Origin: Flavobacteriaceae bacterium
GTDB lineage: Bacteria; Bacteroidota; Bacteroidia; Flavobacteriales; Flavobacteriaceae
Assembly: GCA_029238125.1 (NCBI GenBank)
Contig: JAQWGQ010000002.1
Coordinates: 30,068 to 94,067, forward strand
Length of the DNA: 64,000 nt
Direction of reading: 5' to 3'
Part shown: piece after piece, positions 52,359-63,386 of the stretch
Layout of the letters: each line of letters starts with the position of its first letter
Position numbering within the stretch: position 1 is the stretch's first letter
Notes under the pieces: model-generated
Databases searched by the model: none
Told to the model about the DNA's origin: nothing
Seen by the model: only the letters and a program-made list of their open reading frames with translations
Position numbers and translations under genes: made by a program

Positions 52359-55044
52359 ATGAAAAACCTAATTATATTTTTATTGTTCACAACCTTTGTC
52401 TTTGCGCAGCAAAGTGGAATGGTTGTTGATCAAAAACAATGAACCCTTGCCAGGAGCGAGTGTTGTCATAAAGGGCACGACCACGGGCACAACTACTGAC
52501 TTTGACGGAAAGTTTTCTATCAACATAAGTCAGGGTGATGTGATTATCGTTTCTTATGTTGGTTTCTCAACCAATGAAGTCACTTTTGACGGAGGCAGCT
52601 TAACCGTTGTTCTTAACGAAGGCGAAGCACTTGACGAAGTTCTTGTAACGGGTAACCGTTCGAAGCCAAGAACGGCAATTGACTCTGCTGTTCCGATTGA
52701 TAATATCAGAACGGAGTCTGTTCTCAATGTCGGTGAAGCATCGATTGAGCGTGCTTAAACATTCACGATTCCTTCCTATAACTCCCAAGATCAGGCGATT
52801 TCTGATGCAACTGCTGGCTTTAGCCCAGCTGACCTACGTGGGTTGGGTCCATCAAGAACTTTGGTTCTTATCAATGGAAAGCGTGTGAATCAACAAGCGC
52901 AAGCTTACTTGAATCGTACTCCTGGAAAAGGGGAGGTTGGGATCAACCTGAAATCGATTCCTTTGGCTGCTGTTGAGCGAATCGAGGTCCTTCGTGATGG
53001 AGCATCTTCACAGTATGGTTCTGATGCCATGGCTGGTGTGATGAACTTTATCCTTAAAGAAGACTCTGCGTTCTCGACTTTGAGTGCCGGAACAGGCATT
53101 ACTTCTGAGGGCGATGGCTTTCAATTTAATTTGGATTACAATACGACCTTTGCGTTTGGAGACGGTGGACGTATCAACCTAACCGTTGCATACACCGATC
53201 AGGAAAAAACAAATCGGGCTGGATCTCCAGGATTAGGTGCTATTAACGCAGCCAATGAACAGGGGAATGCCGTTAAGTTTGCCGAGAACGACCCTACTTT
53301 AGGAATGATTGTAGGTCGTCCAGATCTTCAACAAAAAACAATTTTTGCAAATATCACTCATCCTGTTGGGGATAATGCAGAATTTTATATGACGCATGGG
53401 TATTCTGAAAGATGGAATCGTTCTTTTGCGTATTATCGCTTCCCAGGATGGAGAGAAGATGTAGCAGCTGCGGGGTTTTTAAATACAGATACTATAGCTA
53501 TTCCAAGATATAGTCAAGATGATTTTGATAATGTTGTTATTACGGACGATGATCTTATTGGAACACTCATCCCTGGAGAGTACTCCGATGATCAAAAAGA
53601 CGGTTACAGTGATTTTGTTGGATATCATCCAACGTTTGAAGGCGATATCAAAGATTTCTTCAACGTCGTTGGTGTTGATTTTGACTTGGCCAATGGTTGG
53701 AATCTTGATTTATCTGTTACACACGGTAAAAACAGCATTTTCTACACGGTTAATCGTTCTGTGAACAGAGATTATCTTAAAAAACATGGCTGGAGTCCAA
53801 GAAGCTTTAAGCCAGGCGGATATGCGTTCTCAAACATTATTCAAAATGCAGATTTATCAAAGTCATTTAGTGACCAAGTTTCATTCTCTGCTGGAGTAGA
53901 GTATAAGACAGAAAAATTTGAAGCATTCCCGTGTGATCCTTTTTCTCGATATGGAGCAGGAAGTGATTCATTTGCTGGAATTTCACTTGACCAAGAAGGG
54001 GAGTGGGATCGCAACAACCTCGCTGTTTATAGTGGTGTTGATGTTGACTTGACAGATAAGCTGTTGGTTGCTGCTGCGGTACGTTATGAGGATTTTTCTG
54101 ACTTTGGTTCTAATTTTAGTTGGAAAATGGCATCTCGTTATAAGTTGAATGACCAATCTGCCCTTCGCGCAAGTTATTCGACTGGATTCAGAGCACCTTC
54201 TTTACATCAAAAGTATTTATCAAACACACAATATATTATTGTTGCGGGATCTAATGAGCCTTTATTGCAGGGTACCCTACAAAATGGTACTCCTGAAGTA
54301 CGCGCTTTGGGCATCAAAGACTTATTTGCAGAAACTTCTCGTAATTTAACTGCAGGTTTGACTTTTGGAAACGGTTCGAATTTCTCAGGTAGTGTTGATT
54401 TTTATAGCATAAATGTAGATGATCGAATTCTATTTACCTCACAGCTTCAAGGAGCCGAGGGGTCAGAATTAAGACAAACACTTTCTGATGCTGGTATTTA
54501 TGCAGTTCAAGCATGGATCAATGCTGGTAACACCAAAACAACTGGACTAGATTTTGTATTGAATTGGAAAAGTAATGATCTTGACCTAGGGCTAGTTGGT
54601 AACTTCAACGAAACCACTATTGAGAGTATTGATACGCCTACAGAACTCGAAGGGGTTGATATTTTTGCTAGAGAAGAGGCAGGTTTGATTACCAATTCTC
54701 GTCCAAAGTCTAAAATCATTCTTACGGCTGACTACAGTACAGATCGTTGGGAAATGGGCATGTACAATACCCGTTTTGGTGAGGTAACTGTAACCGCACC
54801 AGCTGGTGGTATTGATCAAGAACTTTCAGCGAAATTAATCACTGATTTTAGAGTTACATACTTGTTCACGCCGCAATTGAGTTTGACGGGTATCATCAAT
54901 AATGCATTTGATGTTTATCCAGATGAAACATTGGAGAGTACAAAAACTGCTCAGGCAGGAACTCGCTTTGTTTACTCAAGCGAAGTGCAACAACAAGGAC
55001 AATTAGGAAGAAATTTCTCTCTTTCACTGAACTATAAGTTCTAA
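52359..55044 (+). pseudogene. TonB-dependent receptor interrupted by a frameshift and an in-frame stop
   Basis: The ATG at 52359 begins a good signal peptide (LIIFLLFTTFVFAQQ) and reads to VVDQKQ then TGA at 52440. Removing one A from the five-A run at 52432-52436 continues as VVDQNNEPLPGASVVIKG, the carboxypeptidase-like domain. That frame then meets TAA at 52756-52758 after ASIERA, but continues in the same frame (TFTIPSYNSQDQAISD, LRGLGPSRTLVLINGK) to the barrel end at 55044. A single C-to-T change (CAA to TAA) would explain the stop. Restored, the protein is about 894 aa. Two independent lesions favour a real pseudogene. No SusD gene is adjacent. Confidence 0.85.
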
Positions 55045-55817: not shown

Positions 55818-56687
55818 TTAATAAAGACTTCTTTTTTCATGTTTTACCCAATCAACTTCCATAACCCATTGGCCAGTCATGGGAGAGTCTGTAATTTTAG
55901 CATAATTTAAAATCGCAAACATAGCTTCAGGATATTTATCACCCTCTCCTTTGTTTCTGTACACCTCAATTCCATCTAAACGATAAACTAAGTCACTTCC
56001 TTCCCATTCAACGGAGTAGTCATGAAATTCATCTAGAGTTGCAGGCACTGAAGTTCTGAGACTCCACCAATCGCCTTTATCACATTCACCTAAATTTTTG
56101 ATTGCCCCAGTAGTATATTGATTATGATGATGGTCTCCATGGTGCTCAAAAATATCAATTTCTCCAGATCCTATCGTCGGCCAGCAAACATCCTCATTGA
56201 TTTCGTCTACAGGTGGCTCATTATTTTGAGCTCCCAAAATCCACCACGCTGGGAACATACTTGGGGTTCCGTTGCCCCAAAGACGAAGTCTAGCAGTCCA
56301 TTTTCCCTTAACAAACTCCTTGCGGTTTTTAGAGGCGATTCGACCCGCAACATAAGGTGTGGGAGACTGTTGTTTGCCATGTTTGTCCATGTTGTCGCAG
56401 TCAATTTTTTTATCGATGTTGATTAATTTGATCTTAAGAGTTCCATTGCTAACTTCTCGTGTTTCATACATGTTGTCTGGGACATAACACTGCTTTTCAT
56501 TGTTAACCCAAATACGTTGATCTTGCCAATTTTCGTGGTTAAAGATGTCAAAATCATCAAAAAAATCTATTTCCCATTGTTTCTGATTTTTATCGCTATT
56601 AGATGTTGACGTAAGTATGTTGTTTTCAAAAGAAAATAAAGTAATACAAAAAATGATTAGTGTAATGGCAATAGGGATTTTCTTCAT
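55818..56687 (-). CDS. Glycoside hydrolase family 16 enzyme, secreted
   Basis: The 289-aa protein has a signal peptide or N-terminal anchor (IPIAITLIIFCITLFSF). The GH16 catalytic motif GEIDIFEHHG places Glu176 as nucleophile, Asp178 and Glu181 as acid/base. FPAWWILG and FHDYSVEWEGSDLVYRLDG are further family landmarks. GH16 enzymes hydrolyse beta-1,3/1,4 glucans, agars, carrageenans or porphyran; the target is not clear from sequence. It has no T9SS tail and no visible carbohydrate-binding module. A sulfatase gene lies 500 bp away on the other strand. Confidence 0.88.
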   Translation of the reverse strand: MKKIPIAITLIIFCITLFSFENNILTSTSNSDKNQKQWEIDFFDDFDIFNHENWQDQRIWVNNEKQCYVPDNMYETREVSNGTLKIKLINIDKKIDCDNMDKHGKQQSPTPYVAGRIASKNRKEFVKGKWTARLRLWGNGTPSMFPAWWILGAQNNEPPVDEINEDVCWPTIGSGEIDIFEHHGDHHHNQYTTGAIKNLGECDKGDWWSLRTSVPATLDEFHDYSVEWEGSDLVYRLDGIEVYRNKGEGDKYPEAMFAILNYAKITDSPMTGQWVMEVDWVKHEKRSLY

Positions 56688-56773
56688 TTTAATCTAATTT
56701 AAATTGAGTTTCTGATTTATCATAAATTTTACAATTCAATGAATTGCTACAGTTTTTTTTGATTTATTTATTC

Positions 56774-56875
56774 GTGACCCAAACATATAGTTTTCGGACT
56801 TTTTGAATGGAATTAGTGATATGTATTCAGAAAAAATATTCCCAGAAATAAAAAATTATTCATGGGAATAAATCT
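56774..56875 (-). repeat. Hotspot repeat unit, copy A (102 bp)
   Basis: Starts GTGACCCAAACATA and carries the 48-bp module with TCGGACTTTTTGAATGG and AATTAGTGAT, then the terminator-like hairpin ATTCCCA/TGGGAAT (56838-56869). It runs straight into a tRNA-end remnant at 56876. It is closely similar to copies D and E near 61500-61693. Confidence 0.8.
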
Positions 56876-56890
56876 GTGACCTCGGCAGGA
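56876..56890 (-). other. tRNA-Arg 3'-end remnant (GTGACCTCGGCAGGA)
   Basis: Fifteen bases identical to the start of the tRNA-Arg(ACG) fragment at 61694 (acceptor strand and part of the T-arm, minus strand). The sequence then diverges at GTACTTTG. It sits at the same place after the 101-bp-type unit as the longer fragment does. Confidence 0.65.
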
Positions 56891-56905
56891 GTACTTTGTG
56901 GCCCT

Positions 56906-56929
56906 CCAAAGCTCAGCTTTGAAAATCAC
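56906..56929. repeat. Small hairpin repeat, copy 1
   Basis: CCAAAGCTCAGCTTTGAAAA followed by TCAC: a CAAAGC/GCTTTG mini-hairpin with a conserved GAAAAT tail. Two more copies lie at 56958 and 58661, always near the tRNA-end remnants. Confidence 0.6.
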
Positions 56930-56957
56930 ACAAACAAAAGGATTACTCAGTGATCCT

Positions 56958-56980
56958 ACAAAGCTCCGCTTTGAAAATCA
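56958..56980. repeat. Small hairpin repeat, copy 2
   Basis: ACAAAGCTCCGCTTTGAAAA then TCA, directly after the GGATTACT/AGTGATCC inverted repeat. Confidence 0.6.
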
Positions 56981-56995
56981 AAACCTCACAAAACC

Positions 56996-57028
56996 AAAAA
57001 AGCAAGCTTTATGATTTTGCTTGCTTTT
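56996..57028. terminator. Hairpin AAAAGCAAGC/GCTTGCTTTT
   Basis: A 10-bp stem with an 11-nt loop, flanked by A and T runs. It lies immediately before copy B of the repeat, as another terminator lies before copy D at 61443-61485. Confidence 0.7.
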
Positions 57029-57037
57029 GATTTATTC

Positions 57038-57134
57038 GTGACCCAAACATACAATAGTTCGGACTTTTTGAGTGGAATTAGTGATATAAAAACGAAAAAA
57101 AATCATAAAAAATGATTGTTCTCGAGAATAAATT
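57038..57134 (-). repeat. Hotspot repeat unit, copy B (about 97 bp)
   Basis: GTGACCCAAACATACAATAG then TTCGGACTTTTTGAGTGG and AATTAGTGATAT match copies D and E. The second half has diverged: the usual ATTCCC hairpin is replaced by an AATCAT/ATGATT stem. A degenerate next unit start, TAACCCAAACATAC, follows at 57136. Confidence 0.75.
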
Positions 57135-57195
57135 ATAACCCAAACATACTAGGGTTGTTATTTAGTTGTTAATTTTACAACTATGAGACAACACT

Positions 57196-58574
57196 ATGCG
57201 ATTTTTTGTTTTTTTTTCAATTTTATCTTTTGGCCAATCACATCCAAATATTCTCATAATTCACACTGACGACTTAGGGTACCATGATCTCAGTATTCAT
57301 GGTTCTAAAACATATCAAACTCCACATATCGATACGCTTGCGAGGCAATCAGTCTCATTTAAAAAAGCATATGCAAATTACCCAAGATGCGTACCCTCCA
57401 GATTTTCTATGATAAGGGGGAATTACCCAATACAAAATGGAAATATTCCAGATGATGGATTTAAAATTAAAAATATAGCTACAAACAAAAACTTCATTAA
57501 ATCATTTAATACGATAGGTTATCAGACAGCTTATTTTGGTAAATGGCATTTAGGAGACGAACAAAGTTTACATGACTTTGGATTTCAATTTAGTTTTGGT
57601 GCAGGAAAAGCTGGCTCACCTATTAGTTTCATCTATCCCTTTAATATTTTTAAGGGAAAAGGGAAGAACAAAAAAAACCAATTCCAGATGTTGATGACGT
57701 AAGTACTGAAGGTGATTACCTTACTGACGTCATGACAGATCAAGCAATTAATTACTTAAGGCAGCATGATTCATTGAAACCATTTATGTTGATGCTTTCA
57801 TATTATGCTGTTCATCAGCCTATTGAAGCAAAACCGGATGATATTGAGCATAACCGTATAGAAATTGATGCTGTTGATTATGGCAACCAACCCGAATATA
57901 TTCAAGAAGGTACAGGACGAACAAAAATGCGCCAGGACAATCCCGCTTATGCTGCCATGGTAGAAAACTTGGACGATAACATTGGTAAACTTTTAGCTCA
58001 TTTAGAATCTAGTAATGTTTTGGAAAATACTATAATCGTTTTTTCATCCGATCATGGAGGATTGTCTAATGATGGCTATAACAAAAGACGTTTGGCTACC
58101 TCAAATTTTCCGTTACGCGCTGGAAAAGGGTGGCTTTATGATGGAGGGATAAAAGTTCCATTATTTATTAAATGGCAAAATAAATTTAAACCTCGAACTG
58201 AAGATACTTCTATTGTAACGCTTATGGATATTTTTCCAACACTGTTAGATATAACTGCCAACATTGATTTGGGCGTAGACGGGAAAAGCATGCTGCCAGT
58301 ACTTTATTCAAAAAAGAAATGGCAAAATCGAACGGTTTATTGGCATTCTGAAAAAGCAAGGCCGAAAAGTACCGGAGACACAAAATCATCTGCAATACGA
58401 AAAGGGAAGTATAAGCTCATTCATTGGTTTGAATCCAATAAGATTGAGCTCTATAATATGGATAAAGACCCTTATGAAAGACATGATTTAGCCAATGAAA
58501 AACCAAAATTACGACTAGCACTTTTGTCCGATTTAAATGATTGGAAATTTGAAATGGCGCAAGATAAATACTGA
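57196..58574 (+). pseudogene. Sulfatase (formylglycine-dependent), frameshifted at an eight-A run
   Basis: The first frame (57196-57702) has a short signal peptide, metal-binding HTDDLGYHD (Asp25-Asp26) and the CVPSR active site, whose Cys65 would become formylglycine. It ends after KGKNKKN. The second frame (from about 57678 to 58574) continues with PIPDVDDVSTEGDYLTDVM, SDHGGLSNDGY and GKGWLYDGGIKVPLFIKW. The break is at A8 (57670-57677); nine or six A would restore one protein of about 459 aa, a normal family-S1 length. The sulfatase probably acts on sulfated polysaccharide together with the GH16 enzyme. Real decay, length variation of the run and sequencing error are all possible. Confidence 0.83.
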
Positions 58575-58619
58575 TTTTTTTAGCTGTATTAGCGCTTGAT
58601 TAGTACAAACAACTTTTTG

Positions 58620-58682
58620 TTGATTTATTCGTGACCCAGGCAGGATTAATACTTGATCCTCACAAAGCTTCGCTTTGAAAAT
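58620..58682 (-). repeat. Hotspot remnant, copy C
   Basis: TTGATTTATTCGTGACCC (58620-58637) is shared exactly with the left edge of copy B and nearly with copy A. It then reads AGGCAGGATT, similar to the tRNA end, TGATCCT, and the mini-hairpin CACAAAGCTTCGCTTTG (copy 3, 58661-58682). It looks like a chimera of the repeat unit and the tRNA-end remnant. Confidence 0.65.
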
Positions 58683-58788
58683 AGTTCCAACAAAAAAAGC
58701 TCGGCACACTGTTTTCTTGAAATTAACTTTCTGTCCATAACATTCTAAATTATTTATTACAAAAGAAAAAATGATTGGAAACTTTATT

Positions 58789-58826
58789 GCGAGCATTTAC
58801 TTAAAAAAAAAGATCTTAATGCTCGC
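58789..58826. other. Isolated long hairpin
   Basis: GCGAGCATT and AATGCTCGC form a perfect 9-bp G+C-rich stem around a 20-nt A-rich loop that itself contains AAGATCTT. There is no adjacent gene end close enough for an obvious terminator role; the sulfatase ends about 215 bp away. Confidence 0.5.
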
Positions 58827-59017
58827 TTCTATATAATCTATTTTTAGTATGCGATAAATTATTCATAATCACTAATTATGTAGACTATATTATCCAGATA
58901 CATATACTCAGTGAGTGTGAACACCCCGTTGACCTATTTTCGAAACAAACACTGACTTTTTGATGAATTTTGGTAGTTAGCTTTTTGTTAATGAGTGATT
59001 TTCCAATCTATTTTGTT

Positions 59018-59025
59018 TAATTTTG
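59018..59025 (+). promoter_or_regulatory. -7 box (TAATTTTG) for the 59030 gene
   Basis: Exact TAnnTTTG match ending four bases before the ATG at 59030; another predicted leaderless start, this time in accessory DNA. Confidence 0.45.
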
Positions 59026-59029
59026 AATT

Positions 59030-60367
59030 ATGATAAAACAACTACTTTCTCTAACAGGACTCTTTCTATGTCCGTTTCTTTTTAGTCAAATAAGCGTTAA
59101 TGGAAGCCAAATAAAAGATTTGGCAGATCCTACAGAAGCACAAGATGCCGTAACCAAAGCATATATTCAAGCACTTGAAGAAAAACTAAATAGGTTACAA
59201 AATTCTATAGCTAAAAAGGGATATTTCAGCGACGATATTCTTTGGCAACGTTCAGAAGAAAATGAAAATAATTTTAGTACTGGATTTAGAAATGACTGGA
59301 ATGTTTCGTTGTTTGATAGCTATGATAATACTGTTATTTTGGGGCAAAGAGGTTTGAGTGACAATAAAATTATTCCTTTATTAAAAAAACTAGATACTGA
59401 CGGAAATGTGTTATGGGAAAGGTCCTACGACATTTCTTTAATAGAAGAGAATTATCCGATATCAATTATTGAAAATAATTCTAAAAATGGCTATGTTATT
59501 ACATTATGGGAGAGAGAAGAAATTAACAGCGTTTATAACATTAGAAGTGGTTTGTTTGAAATTAATCACGAGGGTGAGTTGATAAATTATTTTGTACAAC
59601 CAATTAGAGTTATTTTTCAAGATATTAATTCATTTACAGATGGATATGTGACGGTGAGTCATACAGTTTCTGAAAACAATAATTTTGGTTTTAGAGTTCA
59701 AGAATTTTCTAACAATATTGAACCTACAAATTCTTTTTTTGTTGACATGGATGAAAATTTTACTGCTGAAAAGATAATTCCATTTCAAGGTGATTATGTA
59801 ATTTGTGGCAATAAAGGCGATAACGGAGTTGTTTTTCGAATTAATCTTTTGACTCAACAAATTATATGGACAAAATCTTTAGTTGCCAAACAGACAAAAA
59901 CCATAAAAATTATTGAGGAAGATATTTTTATAGTTGGTATTGATAATAGGGAAACCTATGAAAGTGGATTTGTCATGAAAATTGATCAATATGGAGATAT
60001 ACAAGATGAAGCTTATTTAGATAGAAGTCCGATTACAAATATGACAACTCACAACAATGACCTTTATTTAATAGGAACTATATATTATTATTTTTCATCA
60101 GTTTATGGACTAACTGGATATGGACAGGATGATGTTATAATTCATAAATTAAATTATAATCTAGGCATCATTTGGAGCAAAAATTATGGAGGTAGTTATA
60201 AAGAAGGCCCATATGTTTCACAACCCTATTATGCTGCTAGTATTCACATTAAAAACAATAACAATATAATTATTGGTGCCCAAACAAGCTCAAATGATTT
60301 TTTAGTTGAGCGAATAAAGAGTCCTGGCAATTCAGCGATTTGGATTCTTGAAATTCAGAACAACTAG
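59030..60367 (+). CDS. Secreted protein with stalk-like N-terminus and propeller-like repeats, unknown function
   Basis: The 445-aa protein has a signal peptide (LLSLTGLFLCPFLFSQ). Next comes IKDLADPTEAQDAVTKAYI, a motif common in phage tail-fibre-like and adhesin proteins of this class, and a short coiled coil (LEEKLNRLQNSIAKK). From residue 75 onward there are repeated blade-like units (DSYDNTVILGQRG, ENNSKNGYVITLWE, FQGDYVICGNKGDNG, HNNDLYLIGTIYYY, KNNNNIIIGAQTS), suggesting a beta-propeller. No T9SS tail is seen. It is A+T rich compared with core genes and lies between two hotspot repeats. Surface attachment is possible but unproven. Confidence 0.7.
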   Translation: MIKQLLSLTGLFLCPFLFSQISVNGSQIKDLADPTEAQDAVTKAYIQALEEKLNRLQNSIAKKGYFSDDILWQRSEENENNFSTGFRNDWNVSLFDSYDNTVILGQRGLSDNKIIPLLKKLDTDGNVLWERSYDISLIEENYPISIIENNSKNGYVITLWEREEINSVYNIRSGLFEINHEGELINYFVQPIRVIFQDINSFTDGYVTVSHTVSENNNFGFRVQEFSNNIEPTNSFFVDMDENFTAEKIIPFQGDYVICGNKGDNGVVFRINLLTQQIIWTKSLVAKQTKTIKIIEEDIFIVGIDNRETYESGFVMKIDQYGDIQDEAYLDRSPITNMTTHNNDLYLIGTIYYYFSSVYGLTGYGQDDVIIHKLNYNLGIIWSKNYGGSYKEGPYVSQPYYAASIHIKNNNNIIIGAQTSSNDFLVERIKSPGNSAIWILEIQNN

Positions 60368-60516
60368 AATTAATATCCACTTTATTATTTCCTATAGTAA
60401 TCTATAATCAGAGAAAAGTTTGTAGATTTTTATGGAACTTGTAGTAACGAAAAAAATTCTGCAAAATTTAGTAATACACAATCAAAAAATTGAACTGAAA
60501 ATTCGTGTTTTTAAGT

Positions 60517-61413
60517 TTAGTCCAAATGTTTTGATTTTTCATATGTGGTTAAGAACTTTTTATATTTAGTGTTTAACTCTTGTCTGGTATAATCAGGATT
60601 AAATACTTCAGGGTAACATATTTTACAAACTATTTCTACAAAAAGGGGTCTTAGTAAACTGTTTTTTATAGCACTTGTGAGGGTTTTTGGAAGTGATATA
60701 TTGTTTTCTATTGTGGCGTAAAAATACCTCGCTCGTTTGCTATTTATAGTATGGATTTTCAATTCTTTGAGTATTTGTTTTTGATAGTCAGCATTAAACC
60801 CAAATGAATTTACTAACTCTTTTTTTCTCTCATTTTTCTTTATTTCGAACCAGCTTGGGGAGGTATTAGATTTTTCAAAATCATCAGAGGTAAGAAATTC
60901 CTTCATAAATTCAGATATTGATTGCCGATATTTAATTTCTTTTCCACTTATAACTGTTTCAGATTTTAAATAAATACTATCAACGAGTTCTATAAAGAAG
61001 TATTTATACAACTTTATAAAAAGGTCTGAGTAGAAGTTTTGATAATCAATAGTTGATCCATCAATGTCTTCAATTGATTTCAATTGTGTATTGAATACAT
61101 TTTCATCCAGTCGAAAATTTAAAGCCCTTTCAAGTTTTTCCACATCACATACAGAATCTAATCTATATTTTTTTGTTAATCTTATATCTTTCTTGGATGA
61201 AAATGCTAAGAATGGAAATAATAGTAAAAGTTGAATTAGCAAATGCTGGTTCTCCAAAGTGCTAAGGTTTTCAGCCAGGTACTCCTTGTGAGAATAAACA
61301 CAGGGGTGACTCCAACTTTTAATATCTTGATATGAAGATAACTCTTTCATATCATGAAAATTAAAAAGTGATAGGGGTATTAAAGATTGTTTTATATATT
61401 CATTCAAAATCAA
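60517..61413 (-). CDS. Protein of unknown function in the hotspot
   Basis: The 298-aa frame has no signal peptide or membrane helix apart from a short hydrophobic stretch (LLIQLLLLFPFLAF) near residue 60. It is lysine- and tyrosine-rich and probably helical; I recognise no family. No ATG starts the open frame: the first candidates are TTG at 61413 and 61407, and the first in-frame ATG is 21 codons in (61350). The 5' end may be lost. A minus-strand terminator lies just upstream (61443-61485), so the promoter must be in the small gap between, or be missing. Confidence 0.5.
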   Translation of the reverse strand: MILNEYIKQSLIPLSLFNFHDMKELSSYQDIKSWSHPCVYSHKEYLAENLSTLENQHLLIQLLLLFPFLAFSSKKDIRLTKKYRLDSVCDVEKLERALNFRLDENVFNTQLKSIEDIDGSTIDYQNFYSDLFIKLYKYFFIELVDSIYLKSETVISGKEIKYRQSISEFMKEFLTSDDFEKSNTSPSWFEIKKNERKKELVNSFGFNADYQKQILKELKIHTINSKRARYFYATIENNISLPKTLTSAIKNSLLRPLFVEIVCKICYPEVFNPDYTRQELNTKYKKFLTTYEKSKHLD

Positions 61414-61442
61414 ATGTGGTCAAAAATTGGACAAACGAAAAT

Positions 61443-61485
61443 AAAAAAAAATCCTAAAGTAACTGTTAATCAGTAGTTTAGGATT
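61443..61485 (-). terminator. Minus-strand terminator before the tandem repeats
   Basis: The stem AATCCTAAA/TTTAGGATT (61450-61458 with 61477-61485) encloses an inner ACTG/CAGT. On the minus strand it is followed by a run of about eight T. It would stop transcription arriving from the tRNA side. Confidence 0.7.
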
Positions 61486-61491
61486 TGTGGT

Positions 61492-61592
61492 GTGACCCAA
61501 ACATACAGTAGTTCGGACTTTCTGAGTGGAATTAGTGATATATAGCCAAAAAAATATTCCCAGATATAAAAAATTATTTTTGGGAATAATCC
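61492..61592 (-). repeat. Hotspot repeat unit, copy D (101 bp)
   Basis: First of two directly tandem units. It begins GTGACCCAAACATACAGTAG and includes the ATTCCCA/TGGGAAT hairpin at 61556-61587. It differs from copy E at only about ten positions. Confidence 0.9.
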
Positions 61593-61693
61593 GTGACCCA
61601 AACATACAGTAGTTCGGACTTTTTGAGTGGAATTAGTGATGTATACTCAAAAAAATATTCCCAGAAATAAAAAATTATTTTTGGGAATAATCC
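61593..61693 (-). repeat. Hotspot repeat unit, copy E (101 bp)
   Basis: Second tandem unit, joined without a gap to copy D and to the tRNA fragment. The hairpin at 61657-61688 (ATTCCCA-AAATAA/TTATTT-TGGGAAT) is followed on the minus strand by T7, so it is a canonical terminator six bases beyond the tRNA 3' end. A second inverted repeat, TTTTTGAGT/ACTCAAAAA (61620-61653), lies in the other half. Confidence 0.9.
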
Positions 61694-61737
61694 GTGACCT
61701 CGGCAGGATTCAAACCTGCAACCTTCTGAGCCGTAAT
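61694..61737 (-). other. Attachment site: 3' half of tRNA-Arg(ACG)
   Basis: On the minus strand this reads from the anticodon loop (TTACGGC; anticodon ACG) through the 3' anticodon strand TCAGA, variable loop AGGTT, T-arm GCAGG-TTTGAAT-CCTGC, acceptor strand CGAGGTC and discriminator A. The 5' side does not continue as tRNA: the bases that should pair with TCAGA are absent. A 3' half-tRNA beside an integrase gene is the classic product of integration into a tRNA gene. The intact tRNA should lie at the other end of the element, beyond the window. Confidence 0.85.
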
Positions 61738-61856
61738 TAAGTTTTATAGCTAATTAGGCTCATTTTAATTCCTTTTTTCAGGTTAAATATACATAAATTT
61801 ACTTACTAATAAAACCTGTTACAAACTTAAGTTACTTCTGTTTGAAATGTAATACA

Positions 61857-61864
61857 TATATTTG
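61857..61864 (+). promoter_or_regulatory. -7 box (TATATTTG) for the integrase gene
   Basis: Exact TAnnTTTG match, 40 bases upstream of the integrase ATG. A TTTG at 61841-61844 is closer than the usual -33 distance. Confidence 0.45.
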
Positions 61865-61870
61865 TAATAT

Positions 61871-61893
61871 GTAGTATACAAAGTAGTATACAA
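61871..61893. repeat. Tandem 11-bp direct repeat in the integrase leader
   Basis: GTAGTATACAA occurs twice with a one-base gap (61871-61881 and 61883-61893), each containing the palindrome GTATAC. The 12-bp period and the position between the -7 box and the start codon suggest an operator, or a leader control site, for the integrase gene. Confidence 0.55.
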
Positions 61894-61904
61894 TTATTAG
61901 AAAT

Positions 61905-63386
61905 ATGCCAACACGATTAGGACTATATCATAGACCACATAAAACAACTCACAAGAAACATTTGTATTTTGATTTGCAGTATAGTAGAAAAAACAGAAAA
62001 CACATACACACATCAATACTGCTAGATGAACACTTTTGGGATAAAAATAACAGAAAGATAAAGCGCTCACACCCAAATTATAAGTCATTACGTGAGGCGA
62101 TAAAGGTTTATGAGCAAAGAATAGAGGTGGGAGAGGATAGGTTTCTTGCTAGACAGATAAGTTTTGAGCAGTTTGCATCTCTAGTTGAAGGTAAATCTGA
62201 TATTAGTAGTGTTGATAGGTATATTGATACAGAAATTCAACGAAGTAGGACTGTTGGTACTTACAAAGATTATGCGTGGGCTTTCAATACCTTTAAAGTT
62301 CATCTTGGTATAAAGAAACCTCTAAAGTTTGAAGATATTACTGTGAGAATGTTAAAGGACTTTAAAAGGCTATATATAGAGGCAGGTCGTAGTAATAATA
62401 GTTTTAATTCTGTAGTAGATAAAATACGAGCAGTCTATAACGATGCAAAAGATAATGGAGTTGTTTATAAAGAATTACAGTTTCCTAGAAATTATAAGTT
62501 GCCAAAGACACCAACAGAGTGGACTATATGCACATTTGATGAATTTAAAAATGCGATAGATAGGGCAAATACCCATAGACAATGGGAAAGTTTATGTATG
62601 TGGCTTTTATCTTTTTGTATGCGTGGTATGTACTTTGCTGACTTTAGTTCTATTTCTGAAAATGATATTATTGGAGATAATGATGAGTATCAGACTTGGT
62701 GTACAGACAAAGAATTTGTAATAAAACACAGAAGACACAAAGTAAAGAGGCGTATGTCGCAACCAATGTTTATTAGAATAGACAGATACCCTACAAGTCA
62801 GTTATTTCTTATGTTGAAGTTTTCATTTGCGTCAAGGTATTGGAATACCGCAAACCGAGATATGGTAGGGGATATAAATGATAGATTGAGTATTTATAGT
62901 TATAATCTGAACACAGCTAAAGGGGATAAGTTTCACAACGAAATGATGAACAGTTATCAAAAAGCCATAAGAAGTGTTTTACCCAACCAACCGATGAAAA
63001 ATGCAAGGAAATGTTTTAAAACTATTGCGAATAGAAATGGTACAAGAAGAATTGCCGACTTACTAATAGGACATAGTTCTGATACTCAACAAAACGAATT
63101 AAGCTACAATGACAACACTTATTTAGCACAAGAAGTTTACGATACTCACACGAAAGTGTTACAAGAGTTTAGAGCAGATGACTTGTGTGAATTATTACAG
63201 AAAAAACTTATCTCATTAGTTGAAAAAAATGAAGCCCCCGCTATGCTTGCAGATTATAGTTTAGAAGTAATTGACAAGAAAGGGGGTATATATTTAGGAA
63301 AAAACGAAACCAATCAAAAGGGGTTTGAAAGCTACTTCAAGAGTTACAATGATTTACGTTTCTATGAAAAGGACATACCTGTATAG
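61905..63386 (+). CDS. Tyrosine recombinase (integrase) with SAM-like core-binding domain
   Basis: The 493-aa protein has an N-terminal arm-binding-like region, a SAM-like core-binding domain (residues about 100-185) and a catalytic domain. Box I Arg240 is in LLSFCMRGMYFADF; a basic segment HRRHKVKRR is at the beta-hairpin; LIGHSSD provides His390; candidate nucleophiles are Tyr401 (ELSYND) and Tyr406. The box II HxxR motif is altered: Lys365-Asn-Ala-Arg368 replaces the usual His. The C-terminus extends about 85 residues past the nucleophile, longer than most Bacteroidota integrases. Its position beside the tRNA fragment makes it the likely enzyme of this element. Confidence 0.88.
   Translation: MPTRLGLYHRPHKTTHKKHLYFDLQYSRKNRKHIHTSILLDEHFWDKNNRKIKRSHPNYKSLREAIKVYEQRIEVGEDRFLARQISFEQFASLVEGKSDISSVDRYIDTEIQRSRTVGTYKDYAWAFNTFKVHLGIKKPLKFEDITVRMLKDFKRLYIEAGRSNNSFNSVVDKIRAVYNDAKDNGVVYKELQFPRNYKLPKTPTEWTICTFDEFKNAIDRANTHRQWESLCMWLLSFCMRGMYFADFSSISENDIIGDNDEYQTWCTDKEFVIKHRRHKVKRRMSQPMFIRIDRYPTSQLFLMLKFSFASRYWNTANRDMVGDINDRLSIYSYNLNTAKGDKFHNEMMNSYQKAIRSVLPNQPMKNARKCFKTIANRNGTRRIADLLIGHSSDTQQNELSYNDNTYLAQEVYDTHTKVLQEFRADDLCELLQKKLISLVEKNEAPAMLADYSLEVIDKKGGIYLGKNETNQKGFESYFKSYNDLRFYEKDIPV

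Follow-up and report, generated by a model that had tools for sequence, protein, structure and literature searches.

The two 101-bp direct repeats that run into a partial tRNA-Arg(ACG) gene in flavobacterial genome G000 are, with a probability of about 0.78, two gene-less members of a tRNA-anchored cassette family of marine flavobacteria. In this family a predicted terminator comes first and a ~33–41-bp site comes last, and a putative site-specific recombinase likely adds and exchanges cassettes at the ...CAC end of the tRNA or of the cassette before. The window, that is, the whole analysed stretch of 64,000 nt, corresponds to C16:30068-94067, and its right end is the end of the contig; the source genome (1.465 Mb in 38 contigs) has a completeness estimate of 82%. 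By comparison of sequences we could show that a unit consists of a hairpin part and an end site, that the boundary lies right after CAC, that one left arm can adjoin several right arms and one right arm several left arms, and that near-identical units stand behind different tRNAs and in distant genomes.

The initial annotation had described the repeats as adjoining a 44-nt 3′ part of tRNA-Arg(ACG) directly, as beginning in both units with GTGACC (plus strand), which matches the tRNA end, and as containing a terminator hairpin in every unit. All of this was reproduced: the repeats are 101 nt each with a gap of 0 and 95% identity, a terminator-like hairpin was found in every unit, and both hairpins of the tandem pair fold, with a T-run after each (Table 1). 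The repeats are not due to chance, because more copies occur in G000 and its relatives. Two poorer copies in the window had been missed. Outward from the tRNA, the pair of gene-less cassettes is followed by a 4.45-kb interval, then by a degenerate unit, a short piece with a tRNA remnant at its end, and a fourth unit. Rfam yielded no match for 56500-62000 up to an E value of 0.1, and the 202-bp repeat pair had no match among phages and plasmids. Beyond the fourth unit, the window is syntenic with G002, G003, G010 and G012 at about 44.0–55.65 kb. The sulfatase (57196-58574) and a TonB-dependent receptor (52396-55044) are each spread over two frames, through decay or sequencing error. The 15-nt copy of the tRNA-Arg(ACG) end between two cassettes is a classical tRNA-end repeat.

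Table 1. Features around the tandem units, in window coordinates (z values are relative to shuffled sequences)
Feature	Coordinates	Strand	Remarks
Divergent integrase gene	61905..63386	+	PF17293 (integrase arm) and PF13102 (SAM-like) domains
tRNA-Arg(ACG) 3′ part, positions 32–75, anticodon loop to end ...GAGGTCAC	61694..61737	-	100% over 44 nt
Gene-less 101-bp cassette 1	61593..61693	-	Directly behind tRNA end; 98% to tRNA-Arg(TCG) units of G004 and L075
Cassette 1: terminator-like hairpin, then T-run	61656..61689	-	-13.5 kcal/mol, z -3.21
33-nt family-1 end site of cassette 1	61593..61625	-	Conservation extends to about 41 nt
Gene-less 101-bp cassette 2	61492..61592	-	95% to cassette 1
Terminator-like hairpin of cassette 2	61555..61588	-	-10.2 kcal/mol, z -1.82 (weak)
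Cassette 2: family-1 end site, 33 nt	61492..61524	-	
Different terminator-like hairpin, opening the next interval behind the end of cassette 2	61449..61486	-	-12 kcal/mol, z -5.05
Interval from end of cassette 2 to next family-1 site	57038..61491	-	4,454 bp, three genes
ORF without Pfam family, in 4,454-bp interval	60517-61413	-	
ORF without Pfam family, in 4,454-bp interval	59030-60367	+	
Sulfatase reading frames, in 4,454-bp interval	57196-57702, 57732-58574	+	
Degenerate unit	about 57038..57131	-	Altered hairpin part and good family-1 site at 57038-57070
15-nt remnant of the tRNA-Arg(ACG) 3′ end, TCCTGCCGAGGTCAC	56876..56890	-	Directly before next unit
Fourth unit, more diverged	56774..56875	-	102 bp, 84–86% to tandem pair

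Matches to the unit in relatives covered the whole unit, the first ~45 nt (hairpin) or the last ~39 nt, with genes between the parts. Since hairpin and site occur apart with genes between them, the unit is a hairpin part plus an end site with nothing between. In the general cassette layout, the terminator-like hairpin begins right after ...GTCAC and the ~33–41-bp site ends in GTTTGGGTCAC. The initial annotation had suggested that the 48-bp module of each unit is a scar left by one of several successive insertions at the tRNA. The module is instead the end site that members of a cassette family have in common, and the whole unit is a complete gene-less cassette (16 copies aligned, 99–103 bp). 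Repeated insertion at a single point, the tRNA end, was supported, and the serial-scar reading was half right.

An IUPAC pattern of the site occurred in 42 stretches from 32 assemblies of the genome collection, 41 of them titled Bacteroidetes/Flavobacteriia and one (L096) a Proteobacteria MAG; viral contigs gave no match. The site consensus is nAAAAAGTTCGAACTTTTGTAAGTTTGGGTCAC (40 distinct sites). A profile search gave 61 distinct family-1 junctions, which are conserved through position -1 and carry different modules beyond the boundary (at most 0.6 bits per column in the first 40 columns after it). An A at -41, outside the 33-nt search model, is present in 59 of the 61. The invariance of TCAC at the site end is there by selection of the junctions, because the family-1 collection required a terminal TCAC; TCCAC was required in the collection of a second family. 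By a terminator rule of our own (stem length 6 or more, one mismatch allowed, two or more G/C, 6 T in 7, within 75 nt), a terminator-like hairpin lies downstream of 43 of 59 family-1 junctions (two of the 61 were too short to test), and 16 of 59 are without one. The same rule gave 0/59 upstream, 33/600 in random windows, 61/600 in AT-rich windows and 51/590 in shuffles. The end site shares just its last 3–8 bases with the tRNA ends seen, while conservation between unrelated cassettes spans ~41 nt of it. It contains a small palindrome. For the helix 12–16/21–25 of the site there was no covariation, and for the helix 4–8/13–17 it was weak, within shuffles for most measures; we rejected an attC-like fold, as covariation was absent or weak for the helices tried.

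The family-1 profile matched in 12 of 149 genomes, namely in 10 of 13 of the window's own genus and in G055 and G058. The 16 aligned units stand behind tRNA-Arg(ACG) (three), tRNA-Arg(TCG) (three), tRNA-Val(TAC) (one), a degenerate tRNA-Arg end (one), the 15-nt remnant (one), the sites of other cassettes (five) and another unit (two). G000 itself also has a unit behind an intact tRNA-Arg(TCG). The initial annotation had named wide scatter of the unit away from any tRNA-Arg as a result that would speak against its reading. Such a result was partly obtained, since units also stand behind tRNA-Val(TAC) and unrelated cassettes, although in every case within the ...CAC frame. The closest upstream tRNA on the same strand of the 61 junctions was Arg(TCG) in 13, Arg(ACG) in 4, Arg(TCT) in 1 and Val(TAC) in 1; a tRNA was absent from 42 of the 61 junction loci, and no locus had a tRNA elsewhere alone. 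At tRNA-Arg(TCG), the upstream flank (ftsZ, yqeY) is kept and the downstream content differs in nine loci.

Units recur at 97–99% identity in many contexts. Cassette 1 is 98% identical to the L075 unit, and the ftsZ and yqeY of L075 are 66% and 61% identical to those of G000. Tandem neighbours are not nearest kin (95% mutual identity in the window and 93% in G004, against 98% between cassette 1 and units elsewhere), which favours separate insertions over local duplication; the unit tree has few differences and weak to moderate support. The two sides of the 61 family-1 junctions fell into 35 left-end and 23 right-end clusters. The unit's left cluster pairs with 12 right clusters and the largest right cluster with 14 left clusters, where clusters are set by our own score cut-off and related hairpins fall together in the largest right cluster. 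Among 61 boundary-to-boundary intervals (35 of family 1 and 26 of family 2; those above 9 kb excluded), 20 were gene-less and shorter than 130 bp. All genomes compared were MAGs or SAGs; neither an excised circle nor a before/after pair of one strain was present among the MAG/SAG assemblies examined.

A second family of sites, ending in ...CTCCAC, was found on contig C8 of G000, where three such sites are spaced 101 bp apart. Its profile matched in 13 of 149 genomes (10 of 13 of the window's genus, G055, G058, and G113 from another family), and its 34 junctions have the same sharp boundary as those of family 1, with 101-bp units in tandem. A tRNA-Ala(GGC) lies upstream in two family-2 loci, at distances of 3.2 and 5.3 kb from the first site that was scored; in the one locus inspected, the tRNA ends in ...CTTCTCCAC with a hairpin directly behind it. 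Most family-2 loci fetched were without a tRNA. The family is apparently anchored on tRNA-Ala(GGC), with the same design as family 1, and a tie to tRNA-Ser or tRNA-Tyr was rejected once tRNA-Ala(GGC) had been found. The distance from GTTCGA to the final C is 27 nt in both families. In gene-bearing family-2 arrays, VWA/AAA and YHYH/sulfatase cassettes recur in changed order; the order of the YHYH/sulfatase and the 458–484-aa cassettes is reversed between G010 and G006. One 289-aa array protein is 93% identical between G000 and G058, which belongs to another genus. The sulfatase of the 4,454-bp interval has relatives close to family-2 sites in G055.

A segment for uronate catabolism (UxuA, UxaC, an MFS transporter, a PfkB kinase and KDPG aldolase) is present in two copies in each of two MAG genomes, G149 and G150. 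Agreement among the four copies extends to GTCAC, after which each has a right arm of its own. Five of the six pairs of left arms are 99.98–100% identical over 4.6–5.1 kb, the left end of the segment lying beyond the compared stretch, and the sixth pair (within G150) is 98.9% identical over 7.9 kb. On two contigs, one per genome, chromosomal DNA further right, past the variable part, is 80–84% identical. The near-identity of the segment against this background indicates that the segment arose after the two lineages had diverged, or that binning is at fault; binning or strain mixing could be the source of the two copies per genome. The moved segment suggests that the use of algal sugars can spread via cassettes. 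One right arm (G150:C2; L262, 1074-5477) contains three Y1 (IS200-like) transposase genes of 188 aa each, which score alike in Pfam (PF01797, 37.7 bits), about 6.5–11 kb from the moved segment.

The half tRNA beside the repeats had been interpreted as the attachment site of an integrase element, and our data support this. All 44 nt of the 3′ part match an intact tRNA-Arg(ACG) from another genome of the genus, and the 5′ part (positions 1–42) lies on another contig of G000 (C33:745-786); the two parts have 11 bp in common (ATTACGGCTCA), and integrase genes adjoin both, 29% identical over the aligned stretch. ARAGORN detected no complete tRNA in the window. The intact gene, which the initial annotation had proposed to look for, was not found in the incomplete G000 genome, where the split tRNA-Arg(ACG) is the only one found; its absence may be due to missing sequence, to a mixture of strains or to a copy carried by the element. 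The split tRNA with its integrase looks like the mark of an ordinary element, separate from the cassettes, that entered at the anticodon loop and has its other end off the contigs. The half tRNA with the integrase of 61905-63386 would then stem from a later integration of the ordinary kind into the same tRNA gene that the cassettes use. The integrase ORF had no PF00589 and no NCBIfam match. Homologues were present in 19 of 149 genomes searched (its own included) and in only 1 of 12 other same-genus genomes, where family-1 sites or units are found nearly throughout (11 of 12; the exception, G008, has a family-2 site). This integrase is therefore probably not the enzyme for the 101-bp units, and we rejected it as a candidate.

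We searched for the cassette recombinase among other gene families as well. In none of the 15 genomes compared was a PF00589 gene located between two sites, a search that divergent integrases could escape, and PF00589 genes as such are present in all genomes of two sets (15/15 and 17/17). Six proteins from G163, G058 and G000 had XerD (three) or XerC (three) as best model, with cut-offs reached by two of the three XerD and none of the three XerC proteins. The ~350-aa integrases of the genus were rejected: they adjoin split tRNA-Met and tRNA-His halves and are absent from the site-bearing G055 and G058. In L185, L186, L187, L189 and L191, such integrases neighbour tRNA-Met and tRNA-His genes, either split or intact. 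Serine recombinases (2/15 genomes) and Y1 transposases (PF01797 in 0/15 same-genus and close site-bearing genomes; G150, with its three, is outside this set) were likewise rejected, as was an XerA/integron-like integrase, which is too patchy (2/15 genomes; named in G012 and G156). The last scored 213 bits on TIGR02249 (cut-off 265) and above the cut-off of NF040815 in L194 and L286; it does not lie beside family-1 or family-2 arrays, and it had no match in G150, a carrier of the moved cassette. In G012 it is located near tRNA-Leu(CAA) and umuDC-like genes (L194, 7392-8237), L286 is the G156 locus, and in G055 (L195) we recognized a broken relative by eye.

We propose that a cassette would move as a circular intermediate whose joint is formed by end site and hairpin. 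The crossover would fall within the short run of shared bases that ends in CAC; the tRNA would thereby keep its own sequence, and the newcomer would bring a new terminator. The tandem units would represent independent insertions and not a local duplication. A tyrosine recombinase might act in trans, either one of the XerC/XerD type, the patchy XerA/integron-like integrase or an enzyme on a visiting element.

Exchange of neighbours could also come from homologous recombination between repeated sites or units, in which case only the first arrival at a tRNA would need another mechanism. All family-1 cassettes have 33–41 bp in common and units ~100 bp, and a breakpoint within the shared site would look just as exact. 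We regard this explanation as unlikely, since joints to the Arg(ACG), Arg(TCG), Arg(TCT) and Val(TAC) ends share 3–8 bases, and the 33–41 bp of the site are short for RecA. That the units are remains of an additive genomic island, whose ordinary elements enter the tRNA serially and each leave a tRNA-end repeat, is quite unlikely. The half tRNA with its integrase, the true 15-nt remnant at 56876-56890 and the repeated tRNA ends at islands described in PMC10872708 and PMC7771536 are in its favour. Yet the end site is no tRNA copy, with 3–8 shared bases against ~41 nt conserved among unrelated cassettes; the unit is complete and recurs almost unchanged in many contexts; and scars would not be bounded by a conserved hairpin on one side and by a conserved site on the opposite side. 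Slippage that duplicated one unit beside the tRNA would account for two adjacent units of 95% identity, and is improbable given the closer match of cassette 1 (98%) to the G004 and L075 units and the 93% between neighbours in G004, although these comparisons involve few differences and moderate support.

Transposition by an IS200/IS605-like or REP-type element (Y1 transposase), with hairpins at its ends and insertion 3′ of a short motif and no target duplication, is very improbable. The hairpin near one end, the small palindrome in the site, insertion behind CAC and the three Y1 genes of G150 would suit such an element; the targets, however, are tRNA ends and no bare tetranucleotide, PF01797 is missing from the 15 same-genus and close site-bearing genomes (a set without G150), and the helices tried lack covariation support. 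We give least credence to a true integron array, one with IntI and attC sites, even though gene cassettes with an end site, changing array order, an integrase gene oriented away from the array and, in some genomes, an integrase that reaches 213 bits on the integron model, whose cut-off is 265, recall one. The attC core consensus is GTTRRRY, whereas the site has TTTGGGT and is too short; the attC fold is unsupported, the window integrase has no NCBIfam match, and the array starts at tRNA genes.

The cassette system, as tested, fails defining features of both integrons and additive islands. Like integrons, it combines gene(s) with one shared end site, has a shuffled order and a primary target, and includes free-standing gene-less units. 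Unlike in integrons, tRNA ends take the place of attI, a terminator stands at the cassette front, an IntI-type integrase was not found beside the arrays, and, judged on the consensus and covariation of the sites, the GTTRRRY core and a conserved fold are missing. Tycheposons carry their own recombinase, whereas the 15 genomes compared have no PF00589 gene between two sites. Tycheposons resemble the cassettes in their association with tRNAs, their tyrosine-recombinase logic and their nutrient-use cargo in marine bacteria; they differ in being large, with a size given as 4–200 kbp in PMC10872708. Ordinary tRNA-targeting integrases (the 61905-63386 ORF and the ~350-aa proteins at split tRNA-Met and tRNA-His) have the same tRNA target and leave half tRNAs, splitting the tRNA from inside, whereas the tRNA end ahead of the cassettes is intact.

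Additive flexible genomic islands have been described in Ca. Actinomarinales (PMC7771536), Ca. Methylopumilus (PMC10872708) and Alteromonas (PMC4119200). There, small cassettes are added singly behind tRNA genes of streamlined marine or freshwater plankton, one locus has differing content, and cassettes cross genera, all of which is similar to our case; insertion at the tRNA 3′ end and variable downstream content are present here as well. The published joints are described as direct repeats of a tRNA part, e.g. the last 20 bp of tRNA-Lys. Here, in contrast, 3–8 terminal bases are shared, with one true 15-nt repeat (56876-56890), every cassette ends in a ~33–41-bp non-tRNA site and opens with a terminator, and gene-less 101-bp cassettes circulate. 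The system is one of integrase-less, terminator-led cassettes on tRNA ends, which works like an integron array and is located like additive tRNA islands. We found no paper describing the site or the units in the open-licence PMC literature.

These features bear on the exchange of catabolic and surface genes in streamlined ocean bacteria, where mobile elements are few. We tentatively suggest, at somewhat less than even odds, a new integron-like platform. Its entry points would be tRNA 3′ ends, where terminator-led cassettes are captured and shuffled via a short dedicated site. Parallel families of one geometry would serve Arg/Val and Ala tRNAs, and the stock would be kept without resident integrases, with XerC/XerD-type or visiting recombinases acting in trans. 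If so, streamlined marine flavobacteria would possess an exchangeable gene stock without resident integrases, and the leading terminator would let each newcomer re-terminate the tRNA ahead of the insertion. With a defined ~33–41-bp site, a 101-bp minimal member and named tRNA entries, tRNA hotspots become searchable and countable in metagenomes and testable with candidate recombinases.

Directly behind the tRNA-Arg(ACG) of G012 (L049, 8242-8433) there is a 51-bp tandem repeat in 3.8 copies, each with GGATCAC, which is perhaps another kind of tRNA-end array.
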